64,000 nt of DNA from Sphingomonas sp. Root710 (GTDB taxonomy: Bacteria > Pseudomonadota > Alphaproteobacteria > Sphingomonadales > Sphingomonadaceae), in NCBI RefSeq assembly GCF_001429065.1, contig NZ_LMIB01000001.1, positions 1,780,172-1,844,171 of the forward strand, written 5' to 3'. The notes under the pieces were generated by a model. It ran no database searches. It was not told where the DNA came from and saw nothing but the letters and a program-made list of their open reading frames with translations. Below, piece by piece: positions 19,510 through 35,432 of the stretch (positions within the stretch are counted from its first letter, which is position 1; each line of letters starts with the position of its first letter). The position numbers and the translations under genes were made by a program.

Positions 19510-20662
19510 CTAGGGGCGCAACCGTTCTGCGTTCTCCATCAGTTCGAGCAAATCGCCCCGATCCATCAACGCGATTGTCCATCCGGACGCTCCTGCCTCC
19601 TTTTGAGCGTCTGCAGAGAAGGTTGTGCTTGTCACCACGACACCGCCCGCTGTGTCATGGCGGACATTGTCGGCCACACCTTTGAGCCCGCGCACAACAT
19701 CGACGCCCATTATTCGCCCCTTTCGAGGATTTTTGCATTCCGACGAGGTACGACGCTTTGAGTTTGCTGAAGAGCGGAACGACCAGCCGCAGATCGTAGC
19801 CGCCATCGCGGGACTGCTTGGTTTGTATGACCTCAAAGCCGTTGTTGCGGAATATCTGCGCAACGACGGCTTCGAACTGGTGACCACTCATTGCCGCAAA
19901 GTAGCCGGGCTGCGCCTTCACCAGCGACAGAAAATTTCTGGATGTGACGTCGAGCGCGGCCCAAATGTCCGTTGTTAGTTGGCAAAAGGGCATGAGGCTT
20001 GGGATATCGACCGCGATATGGTCGGCAAAAGTGATATAAGCCTGCAGCAGGTCGGGATGCTCGTGCGAAACTGCCGAGAACGCGGCCAGCTCGCTCGCAG
20101 CGAACTCCTGTGCTTCCGCTTCGTCGGCAGAAATACCCGGAATGTCCGTCGAATGCACCCGGCCGTTGTAGCTTTCGCTGAAAGCGAATCGCCAACCGCC
20201 AAAAATTCTCAACGTTTGTGTCAGTCGTCTCGTCCAGCCCTCCTCGGAATCGTCGCCGGTAGGCAGGATCTCTGAAGCGTTGTAGGCAGTGACCATGTAA
20301 AACTTCGCAAGAAATCGACCGTAGCTCCGGATCGCAGCCTGCATCGATTTCGGATAATCGCCGACAACAGGAATGCCCTCAAGGCGGCACGAAGCGGCGA
20401 TGGTGTCCTACATTTCAGTCGTAAGTCGGTCGCCCCTAACCTGTTCGAAAAATCCTTTCCACCGAGCGCCTCTGAGCGCAGAACGGGCGGTATCGTAGAA
20501 CTCATATCGCTCAGGCGAAATGTGTTCTGCGTCGCACTCAAACTCATAAGCGCCAGCTGAGGCGAGGCTGCTGAGATAATCGCCTCGCACCTCCAATTCC
20601 GGGACCCAAGGGCCCCGATGATCGACGACGCTGTAGTCCCAAATCGGATTTGCCGTAACCAT
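19510..20662 (-). pseudogene. Decayed Mrr-like restriction endonuclease (nonsense and frameshift)
   Basis: Three consecutive pieces on the minus strand form one protein. The first runs from MVTANPIWDY at 20662 to an in-frame TAG at 20408-20410. The same frame continues (DTIAASCRLEGIPVVGDYPK) to about 19741. Then one extra base near 19740 shifts the frame, after which ECKNPRKGRIMGVDVVRGLK continues to a stop at 19510. Removing the extra G gives the PD-(D/E)xK nuclease pattern: GHQFEAVVAQIFRNNGFEV, then DGGYDLRL, then YLVECKN. That is an Mrr-type catalytic domain at the C-terminus. Sequencing errors could explain one lesion, but two are more consistent with real decay. Confidence 0.7.
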
Positions 20663-20914: not shown

Positions 20915-22138
20915 ATGGCCATTATTTATGTTCACGGCGTCAAGGTGCGATCGCCAGATCACGGTATTGCCCTGGGAAAGTCCTTTCAGCGCTGGCTGGC
21001 ACCCAAATTATCAGTCGGCGGCACCGCGCCCGACTATGAGCCGGTCTATTGGGGCGATCTTGCGGCGACCTTTCACTGGAACCTGGCTTCTCGCCCGCGG
21101 ACCGCGCTGCTCGGAATGGGGGGCGCGGATGATTTCGCCGGTCTCGGATCGCTGCGCGGCGCAAGCGACGTCAAATTGTTCGACCGTTCGCCCGTCGCGC
21201 CGATTGCGGCAGGACCGGTGCTCGGTGCAGCTATGGTTCCGGAACAAGAGCCCGTTGCGCCTTTATCCGCGGTCCCGCGCGAGAAACGGCCGGATTTTCT
21301 AGCCGATCTTTATCTGGCTTGCTTTCCGGCGGGCTCGAGGGACCCGATTGTTGATGATCCGGAACTTGCCGCACTCGCCGATGCCGCTGCGGCCGTCGCT
21401 GACCAGTGGGACTCGATCGCGGCGCATGAGGCAGATGATGCCGCGCGCGCGCGAAAACTCGTGGCCAGGGTCGATGAGGCGCTCAAGGGCGGCACGCTGA
21501 TCGGCATGGGCGGCTTTGCCGGTTGGATGGAAAAGGCCGGCGAAGTCGTGCGACGGGCAACGACCTGGCCTGGCGACGCGGTCAGCACGGTGCTCGGCGA
21601 GGCGCGGCCCGTGATGAACGAATTCGTTGCGTACTTCGTCGGCGACGTGTTTACTTACCTGACCCGGCGGGTCGACCAGGGTGCGCCGGGCCCAATCCCG
21701 AGCCGCATGCTGGCGGCGCTACGGCGTGCTCAGGAGCGCAAGAAGGCGACAGGCGAGAAGATTGTGGTGGTCAGTCACTCGATGGGCGGCCAGCTGGTGT
21801 ATGACGCGCTGGCGCATTTTGCCGCGGGCGATCCCGTACTGGACGATTTCGAGGTCGATCATTGGATCACCTGCGGATCGCAGGTGTCGCTGTTCGCCGA
21901 GATGCAGCTGTTTCTTGGCCAAGCTCTCCCACTGGAGGGTGGCAAACTGGCGAAGCCGCCACGGGTGAAGGCTTGGACCAATTATTATGACCGCAACGAT
22001 CTGGTCGGGTTCATCATGGAGCCGGTTTTCGACGATGTGAAGGACCAAGCCTATGATACCGGGTATGGGCTGTTCTTCGCCCATACCGGGTTCTTGGCGC
22101 GGCCGAGCTTCTTCAAAGCCATTGCGGATCGCCTGTAG
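20915..22138 (+). CDS. Lipase-like alpha/beta hydrolase
   Basis: A 407-residue protein beginning IIYVHGVK (residues 3-10), the oxyanion-hole HG motif of alpha/beta hydrolases, with a nucleophile elbow VVSHSMGGQLVYDA in which S289 is the nucleophile. This SHSMGG form is common in lipases and phospholipases. About 110 residues of insertion (150-260) lie between, and no signal peptide is present, so it acts in the cytoplasm, perhaps on the membrane's inner face. It is 24 nt upstream of the caspase gene on the same strand, implying joint function. A role as a membrane-damaging effector or as a caspase target is conceivable but unproven. Confidence 0.75.
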   Translation: MAIIYVHGVKVRSPDHGIALGKSFQRWLAPKLSVGGTAPDYEPVYWGDLAATFHWNLASRPRTALLGMGGADDFAGLGSLRGASDVKLFDRSPVAPIAAGPVLGAAMVPEQEPVAPLSAVPREKRPDFLADLYLACFPAGSRDPIVDDPELAALADAAAAVADQWDSIAAHEADDAARARKLVARVDEALKGGTLIGMGGFAGWMEKAGEVVRRATTWPGDAVSTVLGEARPVMNEFVAYFVGDVFTYLTRRVDQGAPGPIPSRMLAALRRAQERKKATGEKIVVVSHSMGGQLVYDALAHFAAGDPVLDDFEVDHWITCGSQVSLFAEMQLFLGQALPLEGGKLAKPPRVKAWTNYYDRNDLVGFIMEPVFDDVKDQAYDTGYGLFFAHTGFLARPSFFKAIADRL

Positions 22139-22162
22139 GCGGCGGGAAGAGGGGCGAGAGAG

Positions 22163-24307
22163 ATGCCGCTGGAAGCCGATACCGACACTCCCGGATTGTG
22201 GCGCGCCGCCACGGCGGACAGCTGCGGGGTACATGCGCTGATCATCGGGATCAGCGATTATCCCTATCTGTCCGACGGCACCGCACCGGGGAACGAACGC
22301 GCCGGCGATAGCGGCGGCTTGGGGCAGCTCGAGGTCTCGGCTCTGTCGGCGGCCATGTTCTTCGATTGGCTGTGCGAAGCCGGTGAAGTCGCCGGAGCGC
22401 CACTTGCGAGCTGCCGTTTGCACCTGGCGCCAAGACCGGACGAGCGCGATCGTGTCGTACAGCTCGTCAAAGGCCATTTTGGCGCGGCGGATTATGCAAC
22501 GCTGCGCGCGGCGCTCACGGCTTGGGCGGACGAGATGGCGCTGGCCGGGCGGCTCGCCGGCGATCCCAATGTGGCGTTGCTGTTTTATTCGGGGCACGGC
22601 GTCGAGGTCGCGGCCTCGCCAGCAATCCTCGCCAGCGACGTTCTGACCCAGCGGGCGGCCGATGGGGGCGCGAGCCGAGCGATTGCGGTTGAGCCGACCA
22701 CCGCTGCGGTCAAAACCTACAATATTAGCCGCGGGCTGTTTTTCATCGATGCCTGCCGCGATGCGCCGCAAGCGGCGCGTCTGCTCAATCTGGTCGGCGA
22801 CGACGCGCTCAAGCCCAATCGAAACGCCGTTCGCCGCCCTGATGGACTTATCAGGCTGCATTCGACCGCGTCTGGGCTAAAATCTTATCAGGTCAAGGAC
22901 GAGACCGGCACCTTATTCACCCAGGCGGTGCTCAGCGGCTTGCAAGGCGAGCCGCCCGCCTATGTGCCCTACGACACGACAAACCTGCCCTGGGCTTTGA
23001 AATTCGCAGCCCTCGAAGGTCATGTGAAGCGGGCAGTGAACCGGCTGCTGGCCGAGCACAGCCCACTGGCGATCCAGTTGGTCGAGCCTTACGGCAATCC
23101 CTACAATGCGGAGATGCTGGTGGCTTTGAAAGCCGGACCGCCGCTCGATGCCGGCGACGTGCCAGCGGTTAGCGAACCCACCCCAGCGAATGTCGAGGAG
23201 GTGGTCGAGCGCAGCGCCGCGGACGTGTTAAAGAACATCCGTTCGCTGAACACGGCCGCGATCAGCGATCTGCGCGGGCCGGCGCCGGGAGGCGTGAAAG
23301 GCGATCTGTTCAACTTCAATGTGATGCACGAGGTGCTCGGCCATGAATCGGTAACCGATCCGTGGATCAGGTCGCTGCGCTTCCTAGATGCCTGGACCGG
23401 GGAGAGCGTCGATCCGACGGTCGCCGAGATCTTTGCCGCACATAGGCAGGAGATTGACGGCCGGATCGCGGCATGGGTCGACATGACGGTTCAACCCGGC
23501 CAGGGTGAAGCGCTCTGGATCGCCGCCGGCGCCGGCGGCGACGAGGACACGACCGGCGCGGCGATTGCGATCCCGCGCGATGCCTGGCAGCCGATCCCGG
23601 TGCGACTAGATATCCAGTTTGACGCAAGCGAAGGACCGTGGAAACTGCGGCAAATGAGCGCGCGTTTGGCCGATCCGGCGGGCGCGGAGGTTTACTTGCC
23701 GTCCAGTTGGCAGACGCTGTTCGAGGCACAGCGGATCGAAGCCTTTGCCGATCTCGCCTCGGCAGCCCGGCCGATCGAGCAGCTTGCGGATCTTCAGGAC
23801 GTCGTCAGTGGCAAGCGCGAGTCGCCGGTCGCGGCGGCATTCGCCACCAATCTTCTGCTGCGGGCAGGCGCCATCGATTATCTTCACGATTGGCCGCGCA
23901 ACCTGGCGGAGTGGTTCCCATGGTTGGCCGATGGCCCGGTCCTGTGGGCGGAGACGCTCCTGAGGCGCCGCGAGGGCGATGAGCTTGATCTCGGCCAACC
24001 GGTTATAGAAGAGGCGCTCCGCTATTTTACGATGCTTAGCGATCGCGGCGCACCGCTGGTGGCGCACAGCCTAGGGCTGGCCCTCCGGCAGGCCGATCTC
24101 TGGCGGCCGTTCGTCGAAAATGACGCTCTCGACGGCGGGAAGCAGTCCAATCTGCGCGCTGCGCTCGAATATGTCGATCGTGCCGGCCGCTTCGCACAAT
24201 CGAGCGTCGGCTTCAGCCGGTTCGTCGGCGCGGGTGTCGAGACGCACCCTGATCACGTCTTGGGTCGCGGCCGATATCGGCCACAACAGATGTTAGCGGT
24301 GGCGTAA
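22163..24307 (+). CDS. Caspase-like (peptidase C14/metacaspase) protein with helical C-terminal extension
   Basis: A 714-residue protein whose first 330 residues form a caspase p20-like domain: first strand HALIIGISDYPYL at 24-36, catalytic histidine H145 in YSGHG and catalytic cysteine C198 in FFIDACRDAP. The full His/Cys dyad is intact. The rest (330-714) is soluble, has two regions (one beta-rich near 460-510, one helical after 520), and matches no domain I recognise. Bacterial caspase homologues act in abortive infection and programmed cell death when paired with sensors or effectors. Here it is translationally adjacent to a lipase-like gene and upstream of an XRE/ImmA operon. Confidence 0.85.
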   Translation: MPLEADTDTPGLWRAATADSCGVHALIIGISDYPYLSDGTAPGNERAGDSGGLGQLEVSALSAAMFFDWLCEAGEVAGAPLASCRLHLAPRPDERDRVVQLVKGHFGAADYATLRAALTAWADEMALAGRLAGDPNVALLFYSGHGVEVAASPAILASDVLTQRAADGGASRAIAVEPTTAAVKTYNISRGLFFIDACRDAPQAARLLNLVGDDALKPNRNAVRRPDGLIRLHSTASGLKSYQVKDETGTLFTQAVLSGLQGEPPAYVPYDTTNLPWALKFAALEGHVKRAVNRLLAEHSPLAIQLVEPYGNPYNAEMLVALKAGPPLDAGDVPAVSEPTPANVEEVVERSAADVLKNIRSLNTAAISDLRGPAPGGVKGDLFNFNVMHEVLGHESVTDPWIRSLRFLDAWTGESVDPTVAEIFAAHRQEIDGRIAAWVDMTVQPGQGEALWIAAGAGGDEDTTGAAIAIPRDAWQPIPVRLDIQFDASEGPWKLRQMSARLADPAGAEVYLPSSWQTLFEAQRIEAFADLASAARPIEQLADLQDVVSGKRESPVAAAFATNLLLRAGAIDYLHDWPRNLAEWFPWLADGPVLWAETLLRRREGDELDLGQPVIEEALRYFTMLSDRGAPLVAHSLGLALRQADLWRPFVENDALDGGKQSNLRAALEYVDRAGRFAQSSVGFSRFVGAGVETHPDHVLGRGRYRPQQMLAVA

Positions 24308-24317
24308 CGTATTGCAC

Positions 24318-24346
24318 TTGCATGTCGGATAATCCGACATTATAAA
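24318..24346 (+). promoter_or_regulatory. Promoter with internal perfect 19-bp operator
   Basis: A -35-like TTGCAT (24318-24323) and a -10-like TATAAA (24341-24346) are 17 nt apart, the optimal spacing. Almost the whole spacer is the perfect inverted repeat ATGTCGGAT-A-ATCCGACAT (24322-24340, 9-bp arms). A repressor bound there would block RNA polymerase. The second gene of the operon it drives encodes an XRE-type regulator, so autorepression is the natural reading. The first ATG of the operon is 33 nt downstream of the -10 box. Confidence 0.65.
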
Positions 24347-24378
24347 GCCATCGTGTCTTCATAGCAGACAGAGGCTTT

Positions 24379-24714
24379 ATGGCGACAATCGCGCCCGCCG
24401 CACCACAAACAACAGCGTTTCCAATCACGGCGGTTGAAACCTGCCTGCACGACGAGCTCATGCAGACGATCAAGTCGATGGCGAAGATCAAGGGCATCGC
24501 GCTGCCCTCGATTGACGCGCAGATCCGCGCGATGCCGGTGCAGGTTGATTCGCTGGTGTGCGTCGACATCTTGTGCGCGGTTGAGCCGATCATCGGGATC
24601 GAACTGCCCGAAAGCGTCGTCAAGGCGGGCGGCTACGGCTCGATCGACAACGCCATCAAGAATCTGATTCCCCGCATTGAAGCCGAGTGGAAGAAGAAAG
24701 GAGGCAAGCCATGA
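24379..24714 (+). CDS. Acyl-carrier-protein-like small protein
   Basis: A 111-residue helical protein. Residues 52-98 follow the acyl carrier protein pattern: a DSL motif (D57-S58-L59) where S58 would carry phosphopantetheine, then helix VCVDILCAVEPIIGIELP and a last helix after YGSIDNAI. In true ACPs the order is DSL, then an acidic helix, then FGIEIP. The N-terminal 25 residues are unstructured and proline/alanine rich. It is the first gene of the operon, preceded by the operator-promoter, and overlaps the XRE gene as ATGA. No fatty-acid or polyketide synthesis gene is nearby, so its partner is unclear. Confidence 0.6.
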   Translation: MATIAPAAPQTTAFPITAVETCLHDELMQTIKSMAKIKGIALPSIDAQIRAMPVQVDSLVCVDILCAVEPIIGIELPESVVKAGGYGSIDNAIKNLIPRIEAEWKKKGGKP

Positions 24715-25076
24715 GCGCTGTCGCAGTCCCCACCGATACGGACGAGGAAGCCCGCCGCCTTCTGGGCGAACGCCTGCGCGAGGCCCGCAAATATCTTGGG
24801 CTCCGGCAGGAAGAGGTTGCGTCCTATCTTAAGATTCCGCGCACCGCGCTGACCGATATCGAAAACGGCCAGCGCCGGGTCGAGGCGATCGAGCTGACGC
24901 GTCTCGCCCGGCTGTACCGCCAGTCGGTCGGCTATTTTACCGGCGAGGACGAAGCCGCGGCCAGCTATGCGCCCGACGTGGCGCATCTTGCGCGCGCCGC
25001 GTCGGAGCTGTCGCCGACCGATCGCGCGGAGCTCGGAAGATTCGCCGAATATCTGCGTACGCGTTCGCGGGCCTGA
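24711..25076 (+). CDS. XRE-family transcriptional regulator
   Basis: A 121-residue regulator with an N-terminal Cro/CI-type helix-turn-helix (about 15-70: LREARKYLGLRQEEVASYL, then IPRTALTDIENGQRRV). The C-terminal 45 residues are acidic and helical. The start at 24711 has an AGGAGG ribosome site at 24699 and forms an ATGA overlap with the ACP-like gene. It is directly followed (2 nt) by an ImmA/IrrE-like protease gene, the standard pairing in which the protease cleaves or inactivates the repressor. The 19-bp palindrome at 24322-24340 is its likely operator. Confidence 0.88.
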   Translation: MSAVAVPTDTDEEARRLLGERLREARKYLGLRQEEVASYLKIPRTALTDIENGQRRVEAIELTRLARLYRQSVGYFTGEDEAAASYAPDVAHLARAASELSPTDRAELGRFAEYLRTRSRA

Positions 25077-25078
25077 CG

Positions 25079-26089
25079 ATGGCGAGCAGCTATGCCCGAT
25101 CGGTGCGCGGCGGGATGATGGCGGCGAGCCGCCTGCATCAGCGTCTCGAGCAGAAGCAAAGGATCGAAGCGCGCGGCGGCAATGTCGACGTGTTCGCGGC
25201 GATCCATGCGCTCGATCTTCCGGTGCTGCTCCGCCCGCTCGAAGGGCTGCTCGGCGCCTATATCAGCGATCCGGCGCCCGGCGTGTTGATCACCACCCAG
25301 CGGCCGATGGCGATCCAGCGTTTCACGGCCGCCCACGAGCTTGGCCACTTCTGTCTCGACCATCAACTGAGTCTCGACGACGAAACAATCCTGCGGCGGA
25401 TGGCCGCGACGTTGGCGCCGGCGATGGATTTCCAGGAAGTCGAAGCCGATGCGTTCGCAGTGGGCTTCATGATGCCGCAATGGCTGATCGCGTGGCACTG
25501 CGAGCGGCAGGGCTGGACGGGCGAAACGCTTGCGCGGCCGAGCACCGTCTACCAGCTCGCATTGCGGATGGGCGCCAGCTATTCGGCGACCTGCTACACG
25601 CTCGGCCGCTACAATCTGCTGCCGCAGAACAGGGTTCAGGATCTGCTCAAAACCCAACCGAAGCAAGTGAAGGCAGCGCTGCTGGCGAACTATCAACCGC
25701 AGGATTATCGCGGCGACGTCTGGCTGCTGACCGAACGTGATGCCAATACTCGGATCGATGGCAGCCGCAATGACTTGTTTGTCCTGCGGCTCGAGGAGCA
25801 TAGCGGCGGCGGCTATCTCTGGGACATCGATCAGCTGCGCGAGAGCGGCTTTGCAATCGTCGGCGATGCGGTCGAGGACATGGATGGCGACGGTGTGGGC
25901 GGTCCGGTCGTGCGCCGCGTCACCGCCGCGACGCGCGAAGCCAACCGGGGAACGCTCGTGCTCGACGAGCGGCGGCCGTGGGAACCGGACGAACCTCTGG
26001 CGAGCCTGGCGGTCGACTATGATTTCACAGGGCCGGAAGAGGTCGGCCTGTCGCGCGCCGAGCGTCGCATTCGTCTCGAGGCGGCATGA
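25079..26089 (+). CDS. ImmA/IrrE-family metallo-endopeptidase
   Basis: A 336-residue zinc protease. The gluzincin site FTAAHELGHFCLDH has HELGH at 86-90, and the downstream EVEADAFAVGFMMP (about 120-133) supplies the third ligand, as in ImmA and IrrE. The C-terminal 150 residues are an added domain I do not recognise. In ICEBs1 and in Deinococcus, such proteases inactivate a partner XRE repressor on DNA damage or stress. Immediate coupling to the XRE gene suggests the same switch controls this operon. Confidence 0.88.
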   Translation: MASSYARSVRGGMMAASRLHQRLEQKQRIEARGGNVDVFAAIHALDLPVLLRPLEGLLGAYISDPAPGVLITTQRPMAIQRFTAAHELGHFCLDHQLSLDDETILRRMAATLAPAMDFQEVEADAFAVGFMMPQWLIAWHCERQGWTGETLARPSTVYQLALRMGASYSATCYTLGRYNLLPQNRVQDLLKTQPKQVKAALLANYQPQDYRGDVWLLTERDANTRIDGSRNDLFVLRLEEHSGGGYLWDIDQLRESGFAIVGDAVEDMDGDGVGGPVVRRVTAATREANRGTLVLDERRPWEPDEPLASLAVDYDFTGPEEVGLSRAERRIRLEAA

Positions 26090-26772
26090 GCCTGATTGAC
26101 GTTCACCAGGATTTGCGGGGCATGTTCGGCGCGGCGCGCGACCAGCGCGGGCGTCCGACCTGCCTCGCCTTTGCGGCGAGCGACACCCATGCCGCGCTGC
26201 GCGATGGGTGGGACCCGTTGTGTTGCGAATATGCCTTCTATCAGGCGCAGCGGCGTGCGGGGCGCCCGCCGACGCGGGGCGCGGTCCTGCCGGTCATGGT
26301 GCAGTCGCTAGCAGAAGACGGGCAGCCGATGGAAGTGGCCTGGCCCTATCTGGCGGCGCTGCCGGCCGATATGGCCCATTATGTCCCGCCGGCCGAACTC
26401 GGCGCGCTGCATGGTCGCGCGGGCATGTTGACATCGACCGCGATTGACCAGGTCGCCGCGTCGCTCGACGCCCACCGGCCGGTGATCCTGCTGCTGATGC
26501 TGTCGCGGTGTTTCTTCGAGCCCAGTGGCGACGGCGTCGTCGATCCGCCGATCGGCGAGCATCCCGAGCCGGCACGGCGGCATGCGGTCATCGCGTGCGG
26601 GCACGGTACGGTCGACGGCTGTCCGGCGCTGTTGGTGCGTAATAGTTGGGGGCCGCGCTGGGGTCTCGGCGGCTGCGCCTGGCTCACTGAATCTTTCCTC
26701 AAGCCGCGACTGTTCGCGGCGGCAACACTCTTGGAGGATATCGATGTATCTGCCCGTCCCGTCGCAGCCTGA
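26086..26772 (+). CDS. Papain-like C1-family cysteine protease
   Basis: A 228-residue papain-fold protease with all active-site residues in place: oxyanion Q20 and nucleophile C26 in DQRGRPTCLAFAAS, H166 in RRHAVIACGHG, and N186 in VRNSWGPRWGLGG. There is no signal peptide or pro-region, so it would be active in the cytoplasm. It overlaps the ImmA-like gene as ATGA and overlaps the next gene by 29 nt. A cytoplasmic C1 peptidase in a repressor-controlled operon is unusual and suggests a dormant effector or a processing enzyme for another product of the locus. Confidence 0.87.
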   Translation: MSLIDVHQDLRGMFGAARDQRGRPTCLAFAASDTHAALRDGWDPLCCEYAFYQAQRRAGRPPTRGAVLPVMVQSLAEDGQPMEVAWPYLAALPADMAHYVPPAELGALHGRAGMLTSTAIDQVAASLDAHRPVILLLMLSRCFFEPSGDGVVDPPIGEHPEPARRHAVIACGHGTVDGCPALLVRNSWGPRWGLGGCAWLTESFLKPRLFAAATLLEDIDVSARPVAA

Positions 26773-27535
26773 CTGTGCGAGCGCGTGGCGCGAGGCCGTT
26801 CGGTTGGTCGACGCGCTGCCCGGCCATGCCGCCTATAATGTCATCATCGATGTCGCGAACGCCGTGACCGGCACCAGGACGGACGATCCGCGGGTCGCGG
26901 CGGTCGACGCATTCCTGCGGCCCTATGAGAAGACGGTCGAGACGGTGGCCAACACGATCTTCCCATCGCAATTCTACTACCGCTACGGCGCGCCGGCGTT
27001 CTTCGAGGCCTTCACCAGCCGGGTGCTCGCAAAGGTGCGCAAGAATTGCCGCTGGTCGGGATATTATTTCGAGCGGATGATCAGTGTGCCGCGGGCCGAC
27101 GGACCGCCGATCAATCAGCTATGGGAAATCGTTAGCCGGATGAAGGCGCCCTCGGTCAAGGCGAACAACAAATTCGAGCTGTCGCTGTTCGATCCCGATC
27201 GCGACGTCGATGAGTCCCCTTATGGCGGGCAGTGCCTGAGCTTCCTCAGCTTCAAGCTGCTGCCGGGGGATCCGAAGACGCTGACGCTGACGGCGATGTA
27301 CCGCAACCACTATTACGTCGAAAAGCTGCTCGGCAATCTCATCGGCCTCGGACGGTTGATGGAGTTCGTCGCGCACGAGGCAGGTCTCAAGGTCGGCAGC
27401 CTGACCGTCATTTCGACCCATGCGGTGGTTGACCAGCCCAAGTCGAAGGCCAAGGGCCAGGCGACGCGAGCACAGATCGAGGCGATGATCGCCGCGTTCG
27501 ATCAGGCCAGCGCCAAACCCGCGCTCGCCGCATGA
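26744..27535 (+). CDS. Thymidylate-synthase-like protein of unknown function
   Basis: A 263-residue protein. The C-terminal half resembles thymidylate synthase/hydroxymethylase folds: a cysteine in GGQCLSFLSFKL (C164) at the place of the catalytic Cys, then LTAMYRNHYYVEKLLGNLIG (182-201), which parallels the QRS-D...N substrate loop, and EAGLKVGSLTVISTHAVVD, which parallels the helix and strand ending in the HxY motif. The canonical PCH and QRSxD residues are not conserved, so it may bind a nucleotide without normal synthase activity. The start at 26744 follows a GGAGG box 6 nt upstream. Its end overlaps the convergent uracil-glycosylase-like gene by 34 nt. The assignment is by eye and moderate. 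Confidence 0.5.
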   Translation: MYLPVPSQPDCASAWREAVRLVDALPGHAAYNVIIDVANAVTGTRTDDPRVAAVDAFLRPYEKTVETVANTIFPSQFYYRYGAPAFFEAFTSRVLAKVRKNCRWSGYYFERMISVPRADGPPINQLWEIVSRMKAPSVKANNKFELSLFDPDRDVDESPYGGQCLSFLSFKLLPGDPKTLTLTAMYRNHYYVEKLLGNLIGLGRLMEFVAHEAGLKVGSLTVISTHAVVDQPKSKAKGQATRAQIEAMIAAFDQASAKPALAA

Positions 27536-28206
27536 TCGAGCGGCAGCTGGGGCGAGGCCGAGGGCCGCTCGGGATCGACGCCGTAAAGCGCGGCGATGCC
27601 GGCTATAAAGTCGGCCTGGCCGCCGTAGCTTGGATGACGGACGCCGGTGACGGGGATGTCGAGCCCTTCGAGCGCGAGCTGGGCGTCACGGCCGATCGCG
27701 ACGATACGGCGCGGGCGGAAGATCGCGATCAGGCCGCGCAGCAGCGGCGCGGTGGCCTCCCGCTCGGTGCGGGTGTGGCAACGGTTCGACAGGGGATCGC
27801 CCGCTCCGTGCGGGTGGAGAGGAAAAACGTTCCAAAGCACGGCGGGCTCGGCGATGGCGGTCAGCATGCGCCAGACGATGGCCGCGGTCCGCTCGGCGAC
27901 GACGGGGCCGCGCGTTGCACGGTGAAATTCGATCCCGCCAAGCAGCGTCCCGGCGTCCTTGAGATGCACTTCGTCGGTCAGGGGCAAGCCGGTCCGTCGG
28001 CCGCCGCGATAGCCGAGGTCACGTGCGATCCAGATGGTGTCGACCCGGGCGACGAGCGCGGCTTCTAACCAGGCTTCGAGATTACGGCGCCGTAGCGCCG
28101 GAGCGTCCGCGCGGTCATGTTCGGGACAGGCTTCGGCATAGGGATTGAAGACCGAGTCGAGGCGGGTGCGCGCGAGCGCGGCAACGAAGGAACGGGGAGT
28201 TTTCAC
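27502..28206 (-). CDS. Uracil-DNA-glycosylase-superfamily protein
   Basis: A 234-residue protein with the UDG fold motifs: FNPYAE (20-25), ARDLGYRGGRRTGLPLTDE (61-79), resembling the GEAPGxxG...TGxPFTSE active-site loop, LWNVFPLHPH (124-133), and VRHPSYGG (189-196), matching the leucine/DNA-intercalation HPS loop. It may excise uracil or a modified base. The start is GTG at 28206, which overlaps the stop of the MazG-like gene as GTGA; the frame is open further upstream but lies within that gene. Convergent with the thymidylate-synthase-like gene. Confidence 0.75.
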   Translation of the reverse strand: MKTPRSFVAALARTRLDSVFNPYAEACPEHDRADAPALRRRNLEAWLEAALVARVDTIWIARDLGYRGGRRTGLPLTDEVHLKDAGTLLGGIEFHRATRGPVVAERTAAIVWRMLTAIAEPAVLWNVFPLHPHGAGDPLSNRCHTRTEREATAPLLRGLIAIFRPRRIVAIGRDAQLALEGLDIPVTGVRHPSYGGQADFIAGIAALYGVDPERPSASPQLPLDHAASAGLALA

Positions 28207-29381
28207 GGCAGGGCCTCGATACGCAAGCGATGATGAATCATGTCGATATGGACGCGCCCGCGGCGATGGGCGCGCAAGAAGCGGAATGCGGCATAGCCCT
28301 CCAATATGGCCTCCTCCCATAGCCACAAGGGACAATCGGCCGCCTCATAGCCGGCGACGAACTGGCGGATATGTTTGAGTAGGTCGAAGGGCAAGTCTCC
28401 GGGCTTCATGCCTTCGAAATAATCGAGGCGGGCAGCCTGACCGAATATCCAAGTGGTCACCCCCTCTTCGATCAGGATGGCGCGCGCACCATCCTCGGCT
28501 TCGTCCAGCTTGGGATCTTCTTTGCGCTTGAGGCGCAGCAGTGCGCGAATGACCGGTGACCAGCCTAGCACCGCGACGTGGGCGAGATGGAAGACGTCGT
28601 GGAAACGGTAATCGTCGGCGACCAAGGCATTGTCGGTCAGACGGTCGCCAATGTTGATGCCGTTGCAGCGCTGATAGACGTAGCTCTGGCCGCGGACATT
28701 GCGCTCGTAGACGTCCAGCGTCAGGATGCGGGGAAGCTTCTCGTCGGGCAAGGCGCTTTCATCGAAGGGCTGCGGATAGATGCGCTCGCTGGGCCAACGG
28801 TCGGCGGTCTTGGCGAGGTTCTTAATGGCGGCGGCCTCGAGGGTCACGCCGGCGTCGGTCGCCGCATGGATGATCGTCCGCAGGATCGCGACGAGGCGCC
28901 CGGCAAAGGCGGCACGATTGTCGGACAGATGGCCAGCTTGCTGATCGCTGACCAGCATTCCGACTTCGCCGGCGAGGCGCAGCAGCGTGGTTTCGAAAGC
29001 AGGTGACGGTTCGGTCTTGCGATCCATGATCGCCGGCTGGAGCGCAGCGAAACTGAGGGCCGCGTCGCCGCCCTGCCGCCAATTGCCGAAGCTCGTCTCG
29101 ACGTTGGCGCAGAGCTCGTCGAGGCCGATGCCGACCCGCGAGGCGAGCACGGTCATGTACCAGAGCACATCGCCGAGTTCCTCGGCCACGGTATCGGCGT
29201 AGCCGAGGTAGGATGCCTTATCGCGCTGCTTCTTCTTGACCTCGCTCAACAGGCTGCCGGTTTCGCCGAATAGCCCGAGCATGGGAAAGGTGATCGATCC
29301 GCCGTCGCTGCGCTGATCGGTGCCAAGCGCTCGGGCGGCGTAATCGGCGATTGTGAGGGGTGCAAAATCGTCGTCGGTCAT
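28203..29381 (-). CDS. MazG-like nucleotide pyrophosphohydrolase with C-terminal domain
   Basis: A 392-residue protein. Residues 30-95 form a MazG/all-alpha NTP-pyrophosphatase domain with metal residues E40, E47 and EELGD (E67, E68, D71). The second glutamate of the usual ExxE is replaced by S43, as seen in a subgroup. The remaining 290 residues are another helical region containing VYQRCNGINIGDRL and FHDVFHLAHVAVLG, which resemble a second metal-binding helical core. It likely hydrolyses (d)NTPs and so may alter or cleanse the nucleotide pool. It is coupled by 4-nt overlaps to both neighbours. Confidence 0.78.
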   Translation of the reverse strand: MTDDDFAPLTIADYAARALGTDQRSDGGSITFPMLGLFGETGSLLSEVKKKQRDKASYLGYADTVAEELGDVLWYMTVLASRVGIGLDELCANVETSFGNWRQGGDAALSFAALQPAIMDRKTEPSPAFETTLLRLAGEVGMLVSDQQAGHLSDNRAAFAGRLVAILRTIIHAATDAGVTLEAAAIKNLAKTADRWPSERIYPQPFDESALPDEKLPRILTLDVYERNVRGQSYVYQRCNGINIGDRLTDNALVADDYRFHDVFHLAHVAVLGWSPVIRALLRLKRKEDPKLDEAEDGARAILIEEGVTTWIFGQAARLDYFEGMKPGDLPFDLLKHIRQFVAGYEAADCPLWLWEEAILEGYAAFRFLRAHRRGRVHIDMIHHRLRIEALP

Positions 29382-29572
29382 CGTGGTCTCCGCCGGCGGT
29401 CCGCGATCGCGTCGGCCGGTACGGGAACACCATAGGCGGCTAGCGCGCGCAGTACGATCAAGCGGATAGGTTCGCGGGCTTCGACGGCGCGATGGCCGAG
29501 GTCGCGCTTGGTAATGGCCGGAACCTGGACCTGAAGAAACTCATCCGGCTCCTCGTGATCTGATGATTTCAT
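29378..29572 (-). CDS. Small ribbon-helix-helix-like protein
   Basis: A 64-residue basic protein that reads MKSSDHEEPDEFLQVQVPAI, followed by an alpha-helical segment with RAVEAREPIRLIVLRALAAYGV. A strand followed by two helices is the layout of Arc/MetJ-type ribbon-helix-helix DNA-binding proteins, which often autoregulate short operons. Start is uncertain: an upstream ATG at 29602 would add ten residues. It overlaps the MazG-like gene as ATGA and is the first gene of the three-gene minus-strand unit. Confidence 0.55.
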   Translation of the reverse strand: MKSSDHEEPDEFLQVQVPAITKRDLGHRAVEAREPIRLIVLRALAAYGVPVPADAIADRRRRPR

Positions 29573-29753
29573 GAAACTAAGATAACATGGAATCATGAGC
29601 AAGGCGAGGATTGGCGGAAGTCGCAGCCTCCCGGCCGAAACCTGTGGAATCTTAGGCTTATGATGGCGCGGCAGGGTGCCGCGGCTTGGCGCGCTCGGCG
29701 CTCAATGGTGACGGCGAAGCTGTCATCCTGACGCCGATGCTGGCGGAGTCGGC
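29573..29753. other. Non-coding stretch between the RHH-MazG-UDG unit and the xthA remnant
   Basis: No gene can be supported here. The right-to-left promoter of the RHH-MazG-UDG unit should lie in this interval. The last 100 nt may be more decayed coding sequence but match nothing I recognise. Confidence 0.4.
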
Positions 29754-30281: not shown

Positions 30282-31253
30282 GTGACCCAGCCATCGGCTA
30301 TCGTTCACGCACGCGGAACCGCGATGCTGCGGACCGCGCTCGGCCCGGCGATCGCGGCCTGGCTCGATGACGCGAACGTCGCCGAGATCATGCTCAATGC
30401 GGATGGGCGACTATGGGTCGATCACCTCGACACCGGCATCGCGGCGACCGACGAGAAACTGAGCCCGCTTCAGGCCGAGCGTATCATTCGGCTTGTCGCG
30501 CATCATGTCGGCGCTGAGGTTCACAGGGGTGCTCCGCGCGTCTCGGCGGAGCTGCCGGAAGGCGGCGAGCGGTTCGAGGGATTGCTTCCACCGGTGGTGA
30601 CCGAGCCGGTCTTCTCGATCCGCCGGCCGGCCAGCCTGCCGCTCGCGCTGGCAGACTATGTGGCTGCCGGCACGATGACGGCGACGGCGGCGGCATACCT
30701 TGCGCAAGCCGTCCAAACGCGCGCGAACATCCTCGTCGCCGGCGGCACGTCGACCGGCAAGACGACGCTCACCAATGCGCTACTCGGCGTCGCATCCAGC
30801 GGAAGCGACCGGATCATCCTGATCGAAGACACGCGCGAGCTGCGCTGCGACGCGGCCAACGTCGTGGCGCTGCGCACCGCACCGGGCGTCACGATGACCG
30901 ACCTGGTGCGCTCGAGCCTGCGCCTGCGTCCCGATCGCATTCCGATCGGCGAGGTGAGTGGCCCGGAAGCGCTCGACCTGCTGAAGGCCTGGGGCACCGG
31001 CCACCCCGGCGGGATCGGAACGATCCACGCCGGGACCGCGACCGCCGCGCTGCACCGGCTCGAGCAGCTCATTCTCGAAGCCATCACCCATGTGCCCCGT
31101 GCGCTGATCGCCGAGACGATCGACGTGATCGCGGTGCTGACCGGGCGTGGCGTCGAGCGCCGACTGTCCGAACTGGTCCGCGTCGAGGGCCTCGAGCCCG
31201 ACGGCACCTACCGCCTTCTCACCATCCACCTTGTCACAGGAGCAGCCTCATGA
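30282..31253 (+). CDS. trbB: Conjugal transfer ATPase TrbB (VirB11-like)
   Basis: Hexameric secretion ATPase that powers pilus assembly and substrate transfer at the inner membrane. The 323-residue protein has Walker A GGTSTGKTT at 154-162, Asp box EDTRELRC at 182-189, and the His-box region GTGHPGGIGTIHAG. In the Walker B region the usual GE[VL]RG is GEVSG, with serine 226 in place of a conserved arginine. Start is GTG at 30282. It is first in the trb operon and overlaps trbC as ATGA. Confidence 0.93.
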   Translation: MTQPSAIVHARGTAMLRTALGPAIAAWLDDANVAEIMLNADGRLWVDHLDTGIAATDEKLSPLQAERIIRLVAHHVGAEVHRGAPRVSAELPEGGERFEGLLPPVVTEPVFSIRRPASLPLALADYVAAGTMTATAAAYLAQAVQTRANILVAGGTSTGKTTLTNALLGVASSGSDRIILIEDTRELRCDAANVVALRTAPGVTMTDLVRSSLRLRPDRIPIGEVSGPEALDLLKAWGTGHPGGIGTIHAGTATAALHRLEQLILEAITHVPRALIAETIDVIAVLTGRGVERRLSELVRVEGLEPDGTYRLLTIHLVTGAAS

Positions 31254-31564
31254 CCCGTTTGCAAAACCTCCAGCGCGCTGGCCTTCTCGCTGCCGCGATC
31301 CTCACCTCGTCGCCGGCCTGGGCCGGCGGCTCGGGCATGCCCTGGGAGACGCCGCTCCAGTCGATCGTCGACTCGGTGCAGGGTCCGGTCGCCAAGGTCA
31401 TCGGCGTGATCATCATCGTTATCACCGGCCTGACCCTAGCGTTCGGCGACACCTCGGGCGGTTTCCGTAAGCTGATCCAGATCGTGTTCGGCCTGTCGGT
31501 AGCCTTCGCCGCTTCGTCCTTCTTCCTGAGCTTCTTCAGCTTCGGTGGCGGGGCGCTGGTCTGA
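31250..31564 (+). CDS. trbC: Conjugal transfer pilin TrbC (VirB2-like)
   Basis: Major pilus subunit precursor, 104 residues. A signal peptide ends at PAWA (about residue 25). Two hydrophobic helices follow (about 48-68 and 76-98), the VirB2/TrbC layout. TrbC of RP4 is cyclised after trimming; whether that occurs here cannot be seen. It overlaps trbB by 4 nt and shares one base with the trbD start. Confidence 0.88.
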   Translation: MTRLQNLQRAGLLAAAILTSSPAWAGGSGMPWETPLQSIVDSVQGPVAKVIGVIIIVITGLTLAFGDTSGGFRKLIQIVFGLSVAFAASSFFLSFFSFGGGALV

Positions 31565-31827
31565 TGCAAGAGGATCTGCCCGGGTTCGCGGCGCCGGTGC
31601 ATCGGGCGCTGGCCGAGCCGATCCTGCTGGCGGGGGCGCCGCGCGCGCTCGCAATCGTCAACGGGACGCTCGCGGCCGCGGTCGGAATCGGTCTGCGCTT
31701 GTGGATCGCCGGCATTGTGATGGCGGTGGTCGGCCATGGCCTCGCCGTCTTCGCCGCCCGCCGTGACGCGCAGATCCTCCCTGTCGCCCGCCGTCACATC
31801 GCGCTTCCCACCCTGTTCGAAAGCTAA
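31564..31827 (+). CDS. trbD: Conjugal transfer protein TrbD (VirB3-like)
   Basis: A small inner-membrane component of 87 residues that works with the TrbE ATPase. It begins LPGFAAPVHRALAEPILLAG, typical of VirB3/TrbD, with hydrophobic segments at about 34-65. It starts on the last base of the trbC stop (TGATG) and precedes trbE by 5 nt. Confidence 0.87.
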   Translation: MQEDLPGFAAPVHRALAEPILLAGAPRALAIVNGTLAAAVGIGLRLWIAGIVMAVVGHGLAVFAARRDAQILPVARRHIALPTLFES

Positions 31828-31832
31828 GCCCC

Positions 31833-34286
31833 ATGTTGTTCCTGCGCGAACATGCCCGCCGCGCGTCGCGGCTTTCCGACTTCCTGCCCTGGGCGGCGAT
31901 GATCGCACCCGGCATCATCCTCAACAAGGATGGCAGCTTCCTGCGCATCGCGCGGTTTCGTGGGCCCGATCTCGACAGCGCGACGCAGGCCGAACTCATC
32001 GCGACCTCGGCGCGGCTCAACAATGCCTTGAAGCGGCTCGGCACCGGCTGGGCGATCTATGTCGAGGCGCAACGTACGGCGTCGCCCGGCTATCCCGTCT
32101 CGGACGGCTTCGCCGATCCGGTCTCGATGCTGATCGACGAAGAACGGCGCGACCTGTTCGAAGGCGGCGACATCACCCGGCCCAACTTCACCAGTGCTTA
32201 TTATCTGACGCTGCAATGGCTGCCCCCGGCTGACGATACGTCGAAGGCGTCATCGCTCTTCTATGAAGGCGGGGCCGAGGGCGTCGCGACGGCCGCCGAC
32301 CATCTCGACGATTTCGAGCGCGAGACGGGCCGGGTGCTCGACATGATCGAGGGCGTCATGCCCGAGGCGGTCTGGCTGTCGCCGGCCGAGACGCTCACCT
32401 ATCTGCATTCGACGATCTCGACCCACGACCAGCAGATCGCGGTCCCCGAGACGCCCATGCATCTCGACGCGCTCCTGGCCGACGAACTGCTCGTCGGCGG
32501 ACTGGCCCCGCAGCTGGGCGCCAAGCACCTGCGCTGCCTGTCGATCACCGGCTTTCCGGCGGCGACGGTGCCTGGAATGCTCGACGAGCTCAACCGGCTG
32601 GGCTTCGCCTATCGCTGGACGACGCGCGCGATCTGCCTCGACAAGGTGTCGGCGCAGCGCATGCTGACGCGCATCCGCCGGCTCTGGTTCTCCAAGCGCA
32701 AGAGCCTGGCCGCGATCATCAAGGAGGTGCTGACCAACGAGGCGAGCGTCCTTGTCGACAGCGACGCGGCTAACAAGTCGGCGGAGGCCGATGCGGCGCT
32801 CCAGGATCTCGGCGCCGATATCGCGGGCTATGCCTATGTCACCACGACGATCACGGTGTTGGGCGACAGCCCGCGGGATGCCGATCTCAGGCTGCAGGCG
32901 ATCGAGAAGATCGTGCGTGGCCGCGATTTCGCCTGCATCGCCGAAGGGTTGAACGCGCTCGAAGCCTGGCTCGGCTCGCTGCCGGGCAATCCCTACGCCA
33001 ATGTCCGGCAGCCGCCGATCTCGACGCTGAACCTCGCCCATATCATGCCGGTGTCGGCGGTCTGGGCGGGGCCGACCAGCGACGGGCATTTCAATGACCC
33101 GCCGCTGTTCCATGCGCGCACCCTCGGCAGCACGCCGTTTCGCTTCTCACTCCATGTCGGCGACATCGGTCATACCCTCGTCGTCGGTCCGACCGGATCG
33201 GGCAAGAGTGTGCTCCTCGCTTTCATGGCGCTGCAGTTCCGCCGCTACCGCGGCGCCCAGGTCTTCGCCTTCGACCATGGCGGCTCGATCCGCGCGGCGA
33301 TATTGGCGGTCGGCGGCGAATGGCACGATCTCGGCGGCGCCCTCGGTGGCGGCGCCGCGCCGCTCTCGCTGCAGCCGCTGGCGCGGATCGACGAAGCCGA
33401 CGAACGGGCCTGGGCGTCGGACTGGCTCGGCGCGATCCTGGCCCGCGAGGGATTCGCGATCACCCCGGAGGTGAAGGAGCATCTCTGGACGGCGCTGGGC
33501 AGCCTCGCCGATGCGCCGGTTGCGCAACGCACCCTTACGGGCCTCACCGTGCTGATCCAGGCGTCCGGCCTGAAGCGCGCGCTGGCGCCTTATACGCTGG
33601 CCGGTCCTTATGGCCGGCTGCTCGACGGCGATATCGAGCATTTCGGGGACAGCGATGCTCAGGCGTTCGAGACCGAGGGGCTGGTCGGCACGCCGGCCGC
33701 GCCGGCCGTGCTCGCCTATCTATTCCACCGGATCGGGCGGCGGCTCGACGGTCGCCCGACCCTGATCCTGATCGACGAGGGCTGGCTCGCGCTCGACGAC
33801 CCGCTGTTCGGCCGCCAGCTCAAGGAATGGCTGAAGACGCTGCGCAAGAAGAATGCGAGCGTGGTGTTCGCGACGCAGAGCCTGGCCGACATCGAAGGCT
33901 CGGCGATCGCGCCGGCGATCATCGAGAGCTGCCCGACGCGGTTGTTCCTCGCCAATGAGCGTGCGCTCGAGCCCCAGATCCTCGGCGTCTATCGCCGGTT
34001 CGGGCTCAACGACCGGCAGATCGAGATCATCGCCTCGGCCACGCCGAAGCGCGACTATTATTGCCAATCCGCGCTCGGCAATCGACTGTTCGACCTGGGC
34101 CTTGGACCGGTCGCGCTCGCCTTCACGGCAGCGTCGTCGCGCACCGACCTGAACGCCATCACCGCGTTGGTCGAGCAGCATGGGACCGAGGGCTTTGCGG
34201 CTGCCTGGGCGCGCCACCGCGGTCTCGGCTGGGCCGCCGAATTTCTCACCACAGAATCGCTCAAGCCCGAGGAGGTTGTTCCATGA
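31833..34286 (+). CDS. trbE: Conjugal transfer ATPase TrbE (VirB4-like)
   Basis: The large 817-residue ATPase of the mating channel. It has the N-terminal VirB4 domain (begins LREHARRASRLSDFLPWAAM), Walker A VGPTGSGKS at about 452-460 and Walker B LILIDEGWLAL near 643-653. The family's FATQS motif follows. Length and motif order are normal. The gene overlaps trbJ by 4 nt. Confidence 0.94.
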   Translation: MLFLREHARRASRLSDFLPWAAMIAPGIILNKDGSFLRIARFRGPDLDSATQAELIATSARLNNALKRLGTGWAIYVEAQRTASPGYPVSDGFADPVSMLIDEERRDLFEGGDITRPNFTSAYYLTLQWLPPADDTSKASSLFYEGGAEGVATAADHLDDFERETGRVLDMIEGVMPEAVWLSPAETLTYLHSTISTHDQQIAVPETPMHLDALLADELLVGGLAPQLGAKHLRCLSITGFPAATVPGMLDELNRLGFAYRWTTRAICLDKVSAQRMLTRIRRLWFSKRKSLAAIIKEVLTNEASVLVDSDAANKSAEADAALQDLGADIAGYAYVTTTITVLGDSPRDADLRLQAIEKIVRGRDFACIAEGLNALEAWLGSLPGNPYANVRQPPISTLNLAHIMPVSAVWAGPTSDGHFNDPPLFHARTLGSTPFRFSLHVGDIGHTLVVGPTGSGKSVLLAFMALQFRRYRGAQVFAFDHGGSIRAAILAVGGEWHDLGGALGGGAAPLSLQPLARIDEADERAWASDWLGAILAREGFAITPEVKEHLWTALGSLADAPVAQRTLTGLTVLIQASGLKRALAPYTLAGPYGRLLDGDIEHFGDSDAQAFETEGLVGTPAAPAVLAYLFHRIGRRLDGRPTLILIDEGWLALDDPLFGRQLKEWLKTLRKKNASVVFATQSLADIEGSAIAPAIIESCPTRLFLANERALEPQILGVYRRFGLNDRQIEIIASATPKRDYYCQSALGNRLFDLGLGPVALAFTAASSRTDLNAITALVEQHGTEGFAAAWARHRGLGWAAEFLTTESLKPEEVVP

Positions 34287-35029
34287 CCCGTCCGCGTACC
34301 ACCAAGCTCGCTCTCGGCGCCGCTGCGCTCGCGCTGGCGCTGAGTTCCCCCGCAAGCGCCCAGTTCGGCGGCATCGTCTACGATCCGACCAACTATGCGC
34401 AGAATGTGCTGACGGCGGCGCGCAGCCTCCAGCAGATCAACAACCAGATCACCCAGATCCAGAATCAGGCCCAAAGCCTGATCAACCAGGCGCGCAATCT
34501 CACCAACCTGCCGACCTCGGTCCTGTCGAGCATCCAGCAGGACATCGACCGAACGCGGGCGTTGATCACCCAGGCGCAGCAGATCGCCTATCGGGTGCAG
34601 GACATCGACCAGGTGTTCCGCCAGCGTTATCCGGCGGGCTCGCTGTCCGGCACCTCGTCGGGCACCCTGGTGACCAATGCGCAGACGCGCTGGACCGACG
34701 CTCTCGCGGCCTATCAGGATTCGCTACGGACCGGCGCCACCGTCACCGGCAATCTCGACGGTACACGGACCCAGGCGGGCACGCTGGTGACCGCGAGCCA
34801 GGGCGCGACGGGTGCGCTGCAGGCGGCGCAGGCGGGCAATCAGTTGATCGCACTGCAAACGCGCCAGCTTGCAGATCTCACCGCGATGCTGGCGGCGCAG
34901 GCGCGGGCCACGGCGATCGAGTCCGCACGCGCTGCGGCCGACGAAGCGCAGGGCCGCGAGCAGACAAAGCGGTTCCTCGCGCGCGGCACGGGCTATGTCG
35001 CGCAAAGCGTCAGCCTGTTCCATGACTGA
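34283..35029 (+). CDS. trbJ: Conjugal transfer protein TrbJ (VirB5-like)
   Basis: Periplasmic or pilus-tip component, 248 residues. A signal peptide ends at SPASA (about residue 26), followed by FGGIVYDPTNYAQNVLTAAR and a glutamine-rich coiled-coil stretch (QQINNQITQIQNQAQSL), both typical of TrbJ. The start at 34283 has GGAGG at 34271 and an ATGA overlap with trbE. It overlaps the next gene by 8 nt. Confidence 0.9.
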   Translation: MTRPRTTKLALGAAALALALSSPASAQFGGIVYDPTNYAQNVLTAARSLQQINNQITQIQNQAQSLINQARNLTNLPTSVLSSIQQDIDRTRALITQAQQIAYRVQDIDQVFRQRYPAGSLSGTSSGTLVTNAQTRWTDALAAYQDSLRTGATVTGNLDGTRTQAGTLVTASQGATGALQAAQAGNQLIALQTRQLADLTAMLAAQARATAIESARAAADEAQGREQTKRFLARGTGYVAQSVSLFHD

Positions 35030-35429
35030 AGAGGAACAGCCTGCGAAGCCGCGCCGCCGGTTCGCCGCGCTCGGCTGGCGATCGGCGGCGATCGCCGCTG
35101 CCGCCGCGACGACCGGCGTAGCCGTGCTGATCACGCTCAGTGGCGCTCAGCCGCCGGCGGCACATTATCGGGTCGGCGACACCACGGGCGAACCGGCGAA
35201 GCCGAACGTCGATCCGCTCCTCGCCGAGCTCACGCGCTGCCGGACGCTTCCCGCCGATACCGACGACGCGCGTTGCCGGGCGGCGTGGGAAGTGAACCGG
35301 CGCCGCTTCATGGGTGAGAGTCGTAGCCTGGTGGTGCCGGTTGAGCCGGCGCCGATCGAACCCGCGCCCGCCAATCCGCTGACCGTTCCGGCCGGCGCCG
35401 GTGCGCCCTCAACGACATGGGAGCACTGA
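35022..35429 (+). CDS. trbK: Putative entry-exclusion protein (TrbK-alt type)
   Basis: A 135-residue protein with one N-terminal transmembrane helix (about 20-40), a proline-rich tail and the cysteine pattern LTRCRTLPADTDDARCRAAW that is shared by TrbK-alt proteins. The family sits between trbJ and trbL in many alphaproteobacterial elements and is thought to block redundant conjugation. The symbol follows position; sequence similarity to RP4 TrbK is not implied. Confidence 0.75.
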   Translation: MTEEEQPAKPRRRFAALGWRSAAIAAAAATTGVAVLITLSGAQPPAAHYRVGDTTGEPAKPNVDPLLAELTRCRTLPADTDDARCRAAWEVNRRRFMGESRSLVVPVEPAPIEPAPANPLTVPAGAGAPSTTWEH

Positions 35430-35432
35430 GCC

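Follow-up and report, generated by a model that had tools for sequence, protein, structure and literature searches.

A mobile gene block in Sphingomonas that seems to link uracil-type nucleotide enzymes to a papain-like protease

Layout of the block and pairing of its I42 domain with a C1 peptidase

The window analysed here is a stretch of 64,000 nucleotides from Sphingomonas sp. Root710 (contig NZ_LMIB01000001.1; positions are counted from the first base of the stretch), in which a five-gene operon encodes, in order, an acyl carrier protein (ACP)-like protein, an XRE-type helix-turn-helix (HTH) repressor, an M78 (ImmA/IrrE) metalloprotease, a papain-like C1 peptidase and a thymidylate-synthase-like (TS-like) protein. 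An earlier interpretation made from the letters alone (hereafter the sequence-only reading) had described this operon with an intact C1 catalytic set, and open reading frame (ORF) positions, Pfam matches and aligned rows bear this out: all five ORFs are in place, with ATG starts and intact motifs. It had overlooked a chagasin-type (I42) domain in the M78 protein, a promoter palindrome, and genes for a uracil-DNA-glycosylase-like (UDG-like) protein and a MazG-MazG_C protein. The operon is half of a larger conserved block, and the UDG-like and MazG-MazG_C genes are convergent to it. The best-supported new element is the C1 protease, which in every locus examined is paired with the inhibitor-type domain of the regulatory protease, atop a core of XRE, M78 and TS-like genes. 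In the block, a papain-like protease is joined to enzymes that apparently act on DNA building blocks of the uracil type, and the whole may be a switch, not described before, that serves in stress or against phages. Its features are as follows.

24318..24346 (+), promoter-like TTGCAT - 17 bases - TATAAA, beginning with the first base of TTGCAT, where the sequence-only reading had set its start; its spacer is filled by the palindrome ATGTCGGATAATCCGACAT (24322-24340), the predicted XRE operator (motif counts)
24379..24714 (+), ACP-like protein, 111 amino acids, with an Asp57-Ser58 phosphopantetheine-type site (aligned rows, PDB profile match)
24711..25076 (+), XRE-type HTH repressor, 121 amino acids, CapH-like (Pfam HTH_31, PADLOC)
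25079..26089 (+), M78 (ImmA/IrrE, CapP-like) metalloprotease with a C-terminal chagasin I42 domain (Pfam M78 and I42, PADLOC capP)
about 25766-25996 (+), I42 domain, residues 230-306 of the M78 protein (Pfam)
26086..26772 (+), papain-like C1 peptidase, 228 amino acids, without a propeptide (Pfam, catalytic residues, PDB profile)
26744..27535 (+), TS-like protein, 263 amino acids (TIGR03283 below cut-off, conserved residues)
27502..28335 (-), UDG-like protein, convergent, start codon provisional (PF03167, E 1.4e-5)
28203..29381 (-), MazG domain and MazG_C, 392 amino acids (PF18722, E 4.8e-81; PF03819, E 3e-5)

The genes had been called tightly coupled, by ATGA overlaps or gaps of at most 2 nt. 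This description fits three junctions, with 4-nt ATGA overlaps between the ACP-like and XRE genes and between the M78 and C1 genes and a 2-nt gap between XRE and M78; it does not fit the C1/TS-like junction, where the TS-like start at 26744 gives a longer overlap of 29 nt.

The M78 domain is recognised by Pfam (E 7.4e-10) and by the PADLOC capP model (E 6.9e-16), its profile matches IrrE (1.6e-8) and CapP (7t5t chain, 1.1e-7), and HELGH and Glu120 are kept in 23/23 aligned rows. Chagasin (I42) is a family of C1 protease inhibitors. The last third of the M78 protein matches I42 in Pfam (E 1.6e-7; 32 bits against a cut-off of 27.2), and its profile matches the solved structures of Amoebiasin-2 (E 2.9e-11) and other chagasin-family inhibitors (E 3.9e-5 to 0.077). 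Across the 20 aligned rows associated with a C1 gene, Gly245, Trp248, Gly274 and Trp301 are invariant, and Arg299 and Pro300 are each kept in 19; we take these residues to lie in the three inhibitory chagasin loops. The C1 peptidase matches Pfam (E 7.1e-7) and, by PDB profile, C1 proteases (E 7.7e-23), with Gln20, Cys26, His166 and Asn186 present in 20/20 aligned rows. It has no long N-terminal extension, propeptide or export signal, and the profile aligns to mature C1 domains from about residue 10.

Pairing was followed in a de-duplicated set of 79 loci, window included, from which fourteen loci repeating another locus's place had been removed beforehand; variants were called with our own profiles, and L and G numbers label loci and genomes. 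I42 and C1 are both present in 62 loci, both missing in 17 and never found singly. Clusters at 90% TS identity gave 42 with both, 18 with neither and 0 with one, a count that precedes the reassignment to the first class of L082, in which both are present in a changed gene order. Only 5 to 211 bases separate the M78 stop from the TS domain in the 17 loci without C1, which leaves no hidden C1 gene. Their M78 proteins continue for 119 to 140 residues beyond the M78 domain (L069, L070, L073, L085-L089, L096, L097, L121-L127); no I42 was found in these tails by Pfam in the 7 of 17 scanned or by our own profile in all 17, and the tail might give a clue to what stood there before the inhibitor domain.

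On a TS tree of 59 rows, built by a quick method with long branches present and L082 left out, the I42 and C1 traits each change once. The link is one joint gain or loss with no separation since, and with a single change a test over independent origins is not possible. C1 relatives are common in viral contigs and served as a control: none of the best 80 of 280 has M78 or I42 within the stretch of flank retrieved. Among plasmids, 16/16 C1 matches lie in records that also hold the TS-like gene. An I42 match occurs in 15 of 289 genomes drawn from the class, six of which (G000, G199, G294, G381, G382, G456) are M78-fused block members; around the match in the other nine, no further gene of the block turned up, mostly within ~1.5 kb. 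From the pairing in 79/79 loci we infer that the I42 domain inhibits the C1 peptidase.

Conservation, promoter and companion proteins

When 84,980 species genomes were scanned with the TS-like protein, a search that extends only to close relatives, 40 loci were recovered. Going by their titles, most are from Alphaproteobacteria, and one assembly each is from the Betaproteobacteria and the Phycisphaerae. ACP, XRE, M78-I42, C1 and TS-like genes stand together in 40/40, and the grouping is therefore more than chance. The sequence-only reading had proposed that a repressor and a protease form a switch, alongside an intact C1 protease, and had named as a weakness that the five families might rarely be neighbours elsewhere; among these close relatives they are conserved as a unit. 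UDG is present in 37/40 and MazG in 38/40; two of the exceptions (L042, L067) are contig ends, and the third, L068, has no UDG but carries HMUDK_hel, the helical domain of 5-hydroxymethyldeoxyuridine (5-hmdU) DNA kinase.

Across the 79 loci the constant part of the block is XRE, M78 and TS-like, nearly always joined by ACP, MazG_C and either UDG or HMUDK_hel. The ACP profile found nothing in L122, L123 and L231 or in loci too short for the gene; no MazG match was found in L074, L122, L130 and L131, where there is room for it, or in 12 further short or contig-edge loci. HMUDK_hel occurs in 16/17 C1-less loci, and five C1-bearing loci have it too (L068, L074, L090, L131, L231). An AcpS-like gene was found in 12/79 loci, with a model run partly on its own source loci (L073, L127, L129, L131); L074, a further locus, has a transferase annotated as Sfp-type. 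A dCTP deaminase-like neighbour was found in 8/79, likewise with a model whose source loci (L072, L127, L131) are included. Both counts are lower bounds because flank lengths vary. The order in L231 (G294:C8) is changed to TS, AcpS-like, XRE, M78-I42, C1, MazG and HMUDK_hel. The UDG match of L237 (7986-10298) is split, its two pieces lying ~1.5 kb from each other as though something interrupted them. Next to the block in L127 (1653-2708), a dCTP deaminase is accompanied by a second thymidylate synthase, annotated separately, and L128 of Burkholderia arboris (7001-7528) has a TS-like match without M78 that is possibly a remnant.

Plasmids carry the TS-like gene in 24 of 72,556 records, including one from Haloarcula, two from cyanobacteria and three from Streptomyces, and 15 of the 24 are predicted to be conjugative. 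No relative was found in 50,697 phage records, which leaves a phage origin of the block unsupported, and IMG/VR gave 3 contigs by the two patterns scanned. In genome draws that each count the window's own genome, 199 genomes of its family included 8 with a strong M78-I42 match, which in one genome is broken into three pieces, and a further 4 with the block type that lacks C1; the 289 of its class included 7 with a TS-like match, G424 being a fragment only. Of 26 genomes with a match among the 398 of its phylum, 4 have a strong one; the other 22, with weak partial matches (E 3.6e-16 or weaker, ORFs of 493-786 amino acids in all but one), were left out as presumably carrying other TS-like proteins.

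The XRE protein matches Pfam HTH_31 (E 1.5e-10) and PADLOC capH (E 3.5e-12). Upstream of the ACP-like gene, the 19-base palindrome fills the promoter spacer and would be bound by the XRE protein. Its motif, TGTCNGANNNTCNGACA, was counted with at most 2 mismatches from 200 bases upstream to 60 downstream of the ACP start, with shuffles of the same stretches as control, and occurs in 60/71 loci against a shuffled mean of 0.5/71; outside these stretches there are 37 sites in 1.10 Mb of locus sequence. By type, 55/58 loci with C1 have the motif, as do 5/13 of those lacking C1; in these five it carries one or two mismatches and mostly lies further upstream. No copy of this palindrome was found for the UDG-MazG operon. 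A second copy of the motif lies near the ACP start in L055, L056 and L061, and two other matches in the window, each with 2 mismatches, are at 41443 and 43425.

The ACP-like protein alone has no Pfam match at E<=1 and an NCBIfam match below cut-off (E 0.0099); a profile of 23 relatives matches solved ACPs (E 3.1e-5), with Ser58 in 23/23 and Asp57 in 22/23 aligned rows. The TS-like protein also has no Pfam match at E<=1, PF00303 does not find it, and its match to NCBIfam TIGR03283 (E 1.9e-8) is far below cut-off (34.1 against 174.55 bits). A weak PDB profile match to solved thymidylate synthases (E 0.037) puts the catalytic Cys, the Arg and the substrate Asn in register, and Cys164 and Asn198 are kept in 23/23 and Arg187 in 21/23 aligned rows. 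In the same weak alignment, the position of an Asp that we take to be the folate-binding residue of thymidylate synthase is Tyr in 11 rows, Phe in 7, His in 2, Gln in 2 and Asp in 1. The sequence-only reading had allowed that the TS-like protein might belong to a known metabolic pathway. Elsewhere the host genome has a normal ThyA (PF00303, E 5e-102) and no ThyX match, so the TS-like protein is not needed for thymidylate (dTMP), and we reject it as the housekeeping enzyme. In the MazG protein Glu40, Glu68 and Asp71 are present in 44/45 aligned rows, the remaining row being a gap; position 43, presumably an acidic metal ligand in common MazG proteins, is Ser in 38/45, which disfavours ordinary MazG activity.

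Possible functions of the block

We give about even credence to the reading of the block as a mobile switch-and-effector system centred on an altered pathway for uracil nucleotides, with XRE and M78 controlling a nucleotide module (ACP, TS-like, UDG, MazG) and an inhibitor-held C1 protease. In regulators of the CapH-CapP type, the M78 protease (CapP) cuts the XRE protein (CapH) when triggered by single-stranded DNA. In the resting state of the cell XRE would silence the operon, and any C1 protease would be kept inactive by the I42 domain. M78 would become active on a cue, be it phage, DNA damage or a nucleotide that the TS/MazG/UDG module makes or detects, and by analogy with CapP would cut XRE; induction of the operon would follow. 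A change in the M78-I42 protein would then free C1 to cut proteins of the cell or the invader, and growth would stop; phosphopantetheine-loaded ACP probably serves the TS-like enzyme. The role may lie in defence or death. The I42 domain with its kept loop residues, the I42/C1 pairing, the viral-contig control, the promoter palindrome, the CapH/CapP resemblance and the mobile setting all point to this switch-and-effector system, and an Mrr-type gene in the window and a few flank ORFs hint at defence neighbours. The sequence-only reading had suggested that one protease activates another; the M78 protein carries a domain of the C1-inhibitor type, which leaves that suggestion unsupported and points elsewhere. 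If the switch-and-effector reading is true, a prokaryotic intracellular papain-type protease has its inhibitor built into the protease that controls its operon, so that one protein could both sense and release. The wide spread of the block, over several bacterial phyla and an archaeon and mostly on mobile DNA, also provides a setting in which to ask why an ACP and a TS-like protein are tied to a stress-type switch.

Several observations weigh against this reading. Seventeen loci lack both C1 and I42, which makes the protease an add-on rather than the core function, and the M78 tail in these loci is possibly a divergent I42 relative without the loops. With a single change on the TS tree, the I42/C1 link reflects one event that persisted and not several independent ones. 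The best PADLOC match of the XRE protein is RmrA (9.8e-13), not capH. The palindrome motif was composed after inspection of the upstream sequences; its exact form occurs once in the whole genome, at this promoter, and a reversed control pattern has one match per strand, so that uniqueness in the genome proves nothing and has been dropped as evidence. A PADLOC scan of 87 flank ORFs from 10 loci found one GajA, two GajB-like helicases and one type IIG enzyme (among the 25 of 132 families listed); UvrD-type helicases are common proteins, and these defence neighbours are hints for which no enrichment is claimed, because the flank scan had no control set.

Among the rival explanations, it is rather unlikely that the block serves DNA modification, in which the TS-like, MazG_C and HMUDK_hel or UDG proteins would make or place a modified uracil in the element's own DNA against restriction while the proteases only regulate. 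The presence of HMUDK_hel in nearly all C1-less loci and in five with C1, the dCTP deaminase-like neighbours in 8/79 loci and carriage by conjugative plasmids fit such a role, but base hypermodification is best known from phages and a relative is in 0/50,697 phage records and only 3 IMG/VR contigs; moreover, UDG, of a family that removes bases, replaces HMUDK_hel in most C1 loci, and a C1 protease with a fused inhibitor is left unexplained. There is a slim chance that the C1 protease is the toxin and M78-I42 the antitoxin of an addiction module that maintains plasmids and integrative elements. A toxin neutralised by its neighbour's product would be consistent with the pairing in 79/79 loci, with the inhibitor coming first in the same operon and with the mobile carriers, but 17 loci keep the rest without C1 or detectable I42, and addiction needs no such set of enzymes.

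Two further explanations start from the carrier and from the TS-like protein. A biosynthesis cluster for a small molecule or nucleoside, with ACP carrying an intermediate, C1 acting as a transferase or hydrolase and I42 tuning C1, accords with the ACP serine being invariant in 23 aligned rows and with the AcpS-like gene in 12/79 loci (four of which built the model) and the Sfp-type transferase in one more. We regard this as very unlikely: no ketosynthase, adenylation or other ACP-loading enzyme is among the annotated neighbours in 18 plasmid stretches (L128 being unannotated), C1 is optional, and neither the fixed XRE/M78 switch nor the mobile setting resembles what such clusters have. Ordinary thymidylate supply, with the TS-like protein making dTMP for the element, would explain the TIGR03283 match and the conserved Cys, Arg and Asn; it is highly improbable given the host's ThyA, the failure of PF00303 to find the protein and the loss of Asp at the folate position in 22/23 rows of a weak alignment. 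A more unusual proposal, which we hold to be unlikely, is that in the TS-like enzyme the phosphopantetheine arm of ACP stands in for folate, with a uracil nucleotide or DNA base becoming joined to, or modified from, the carrier, and that the protease switch senses or clears the adduct. What suggests it is that ACP and TS-like genes are almost always paired, that the serine is invariant, that AcpS genes occur as neighbours and that the folate Asp is lost; if true, it would be a new kind of nucleotide chemistry for immunity or control.

The block shares features with several known systems and differs from each. As in CapH-CapP, the regulators of CBASS, an XRE repressor adjoins an M78 protease with intact HExxH and Glu, in line with the capP and 7t5t matches given above; it differs in that no CD-NTase was seen in the subset of window genes scanned, the M78 protein bears a C-terminal chagasin domain, and the switch controls ACP, C1 and TS-like genes. 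Likeness to chagasin, or inhibitor of cysteine proteases (ICP), lies in an I42 match over the Pfam cut-off, kept loop residues and an adjoining C1 peptidase with a full catalytic set, whereas here, within a single operon, the inhibitor-type domain forms part of a predicted intracellular metalloprotease and its partner is a C1 protease that has no propeptide. ThyA and the methanogen proteins of TIGR03283 share with the TS-like protein the catalytic Cys, Arg and substrate Asn in register, in a weak match; the TS-like protein is below cut-off, lacks a PF00303 match and the folate Asp, and is encoded with XRE and M78. Phage base-hypermodification systems are carried by phages; relatives of the block number 0 in 50,697 phage records and 3 among IMG/VR contigs. 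Systems of 5-hmdU and nucleotide modification (HMUDK_hel PF18723, MazG_C PF18722) share TS, HMUDK_hel, MazG, MazG_C and UDG domains with the block; possible first descriptions are reportedly those of Iyer 2013 and Burroughs 2015. Among the Escherichia coli defence transcription units validated in the DefensePredictor study (PMC13092281) are some that contain a thymidylate synthase and a 5-hydroxymethyluracil kinase domain; MazG, MazG-C and UDG appear there among systems that are predicted but not validated. Its main text contains neither 'acyl carrier' nor 'ImmA', and the likeness is one of domains; at that level it is the closest published support we have seen for a possible defence role. Among the open-licence papers listed by our searches, no title describes the block; an earlier description may exist.

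Mobile setting and neighbouring genes

The window lies in a mobile region. Conjugation genes at 30282-39503 encode the pilin TrbC, a secretion ATPase, and TrbE/VirB-like, TrbL, VirB8, CagX and TrbI proteins, and an Mrr-type restriction endonuclease gene (19655-20344, -) lies between the block and a PrmA-like gene. A reverse-transcriptase defence neighbour is not claimed, since the PADLOC match in question is to a helicase family, matched by two members, as many as GajB. Three further genes flank the block.

29378..29602 (-), small ORF, 74 amino acids, a possible DNA-binding protein by eye (alignment with relatives)
22163..24307 (+), caspase C14 protein, an occasional neighbour and not core (Pfam C14, E 1.0e-8)
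20915..22138 (+), alpha/beta-hydrolase-like protein paired with the caspase, an occasional neighbour and not core (no family over cut-off)

The small ORF has no Pfam match; it is kept in its place before MazG in 12 relatives besides the window, by alignment, and may regulate the UDG-MazG operon.

The sequence-only reading had grouped the caspase and its partner just upstream, a caspase/lipase pair in its terms, with the operon in one candidate region. A caspase match lies near the block in 3/78 other loci, two of them near-identical, with flanks that vary and are often short and a model that includes L131 among its sources; we reject both genes as core. The hydrolase-caspase pair stands beside the block in the near-identical Mesorhizobium loci L065 and L066 and in R. 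ruizarguesonis, where the hydrolase match (E 7.9e-25) is to a model built from the window alone, and it occurs without the block beside repABC genes in an Agrobacterium plasmid. Its positions are 20915-24307 in the window, 12734-14685 in L065 and 4744-8118 in L133, and it is also found in L131/L132. The pair is a separate module that recurs beside the block in three lineages.

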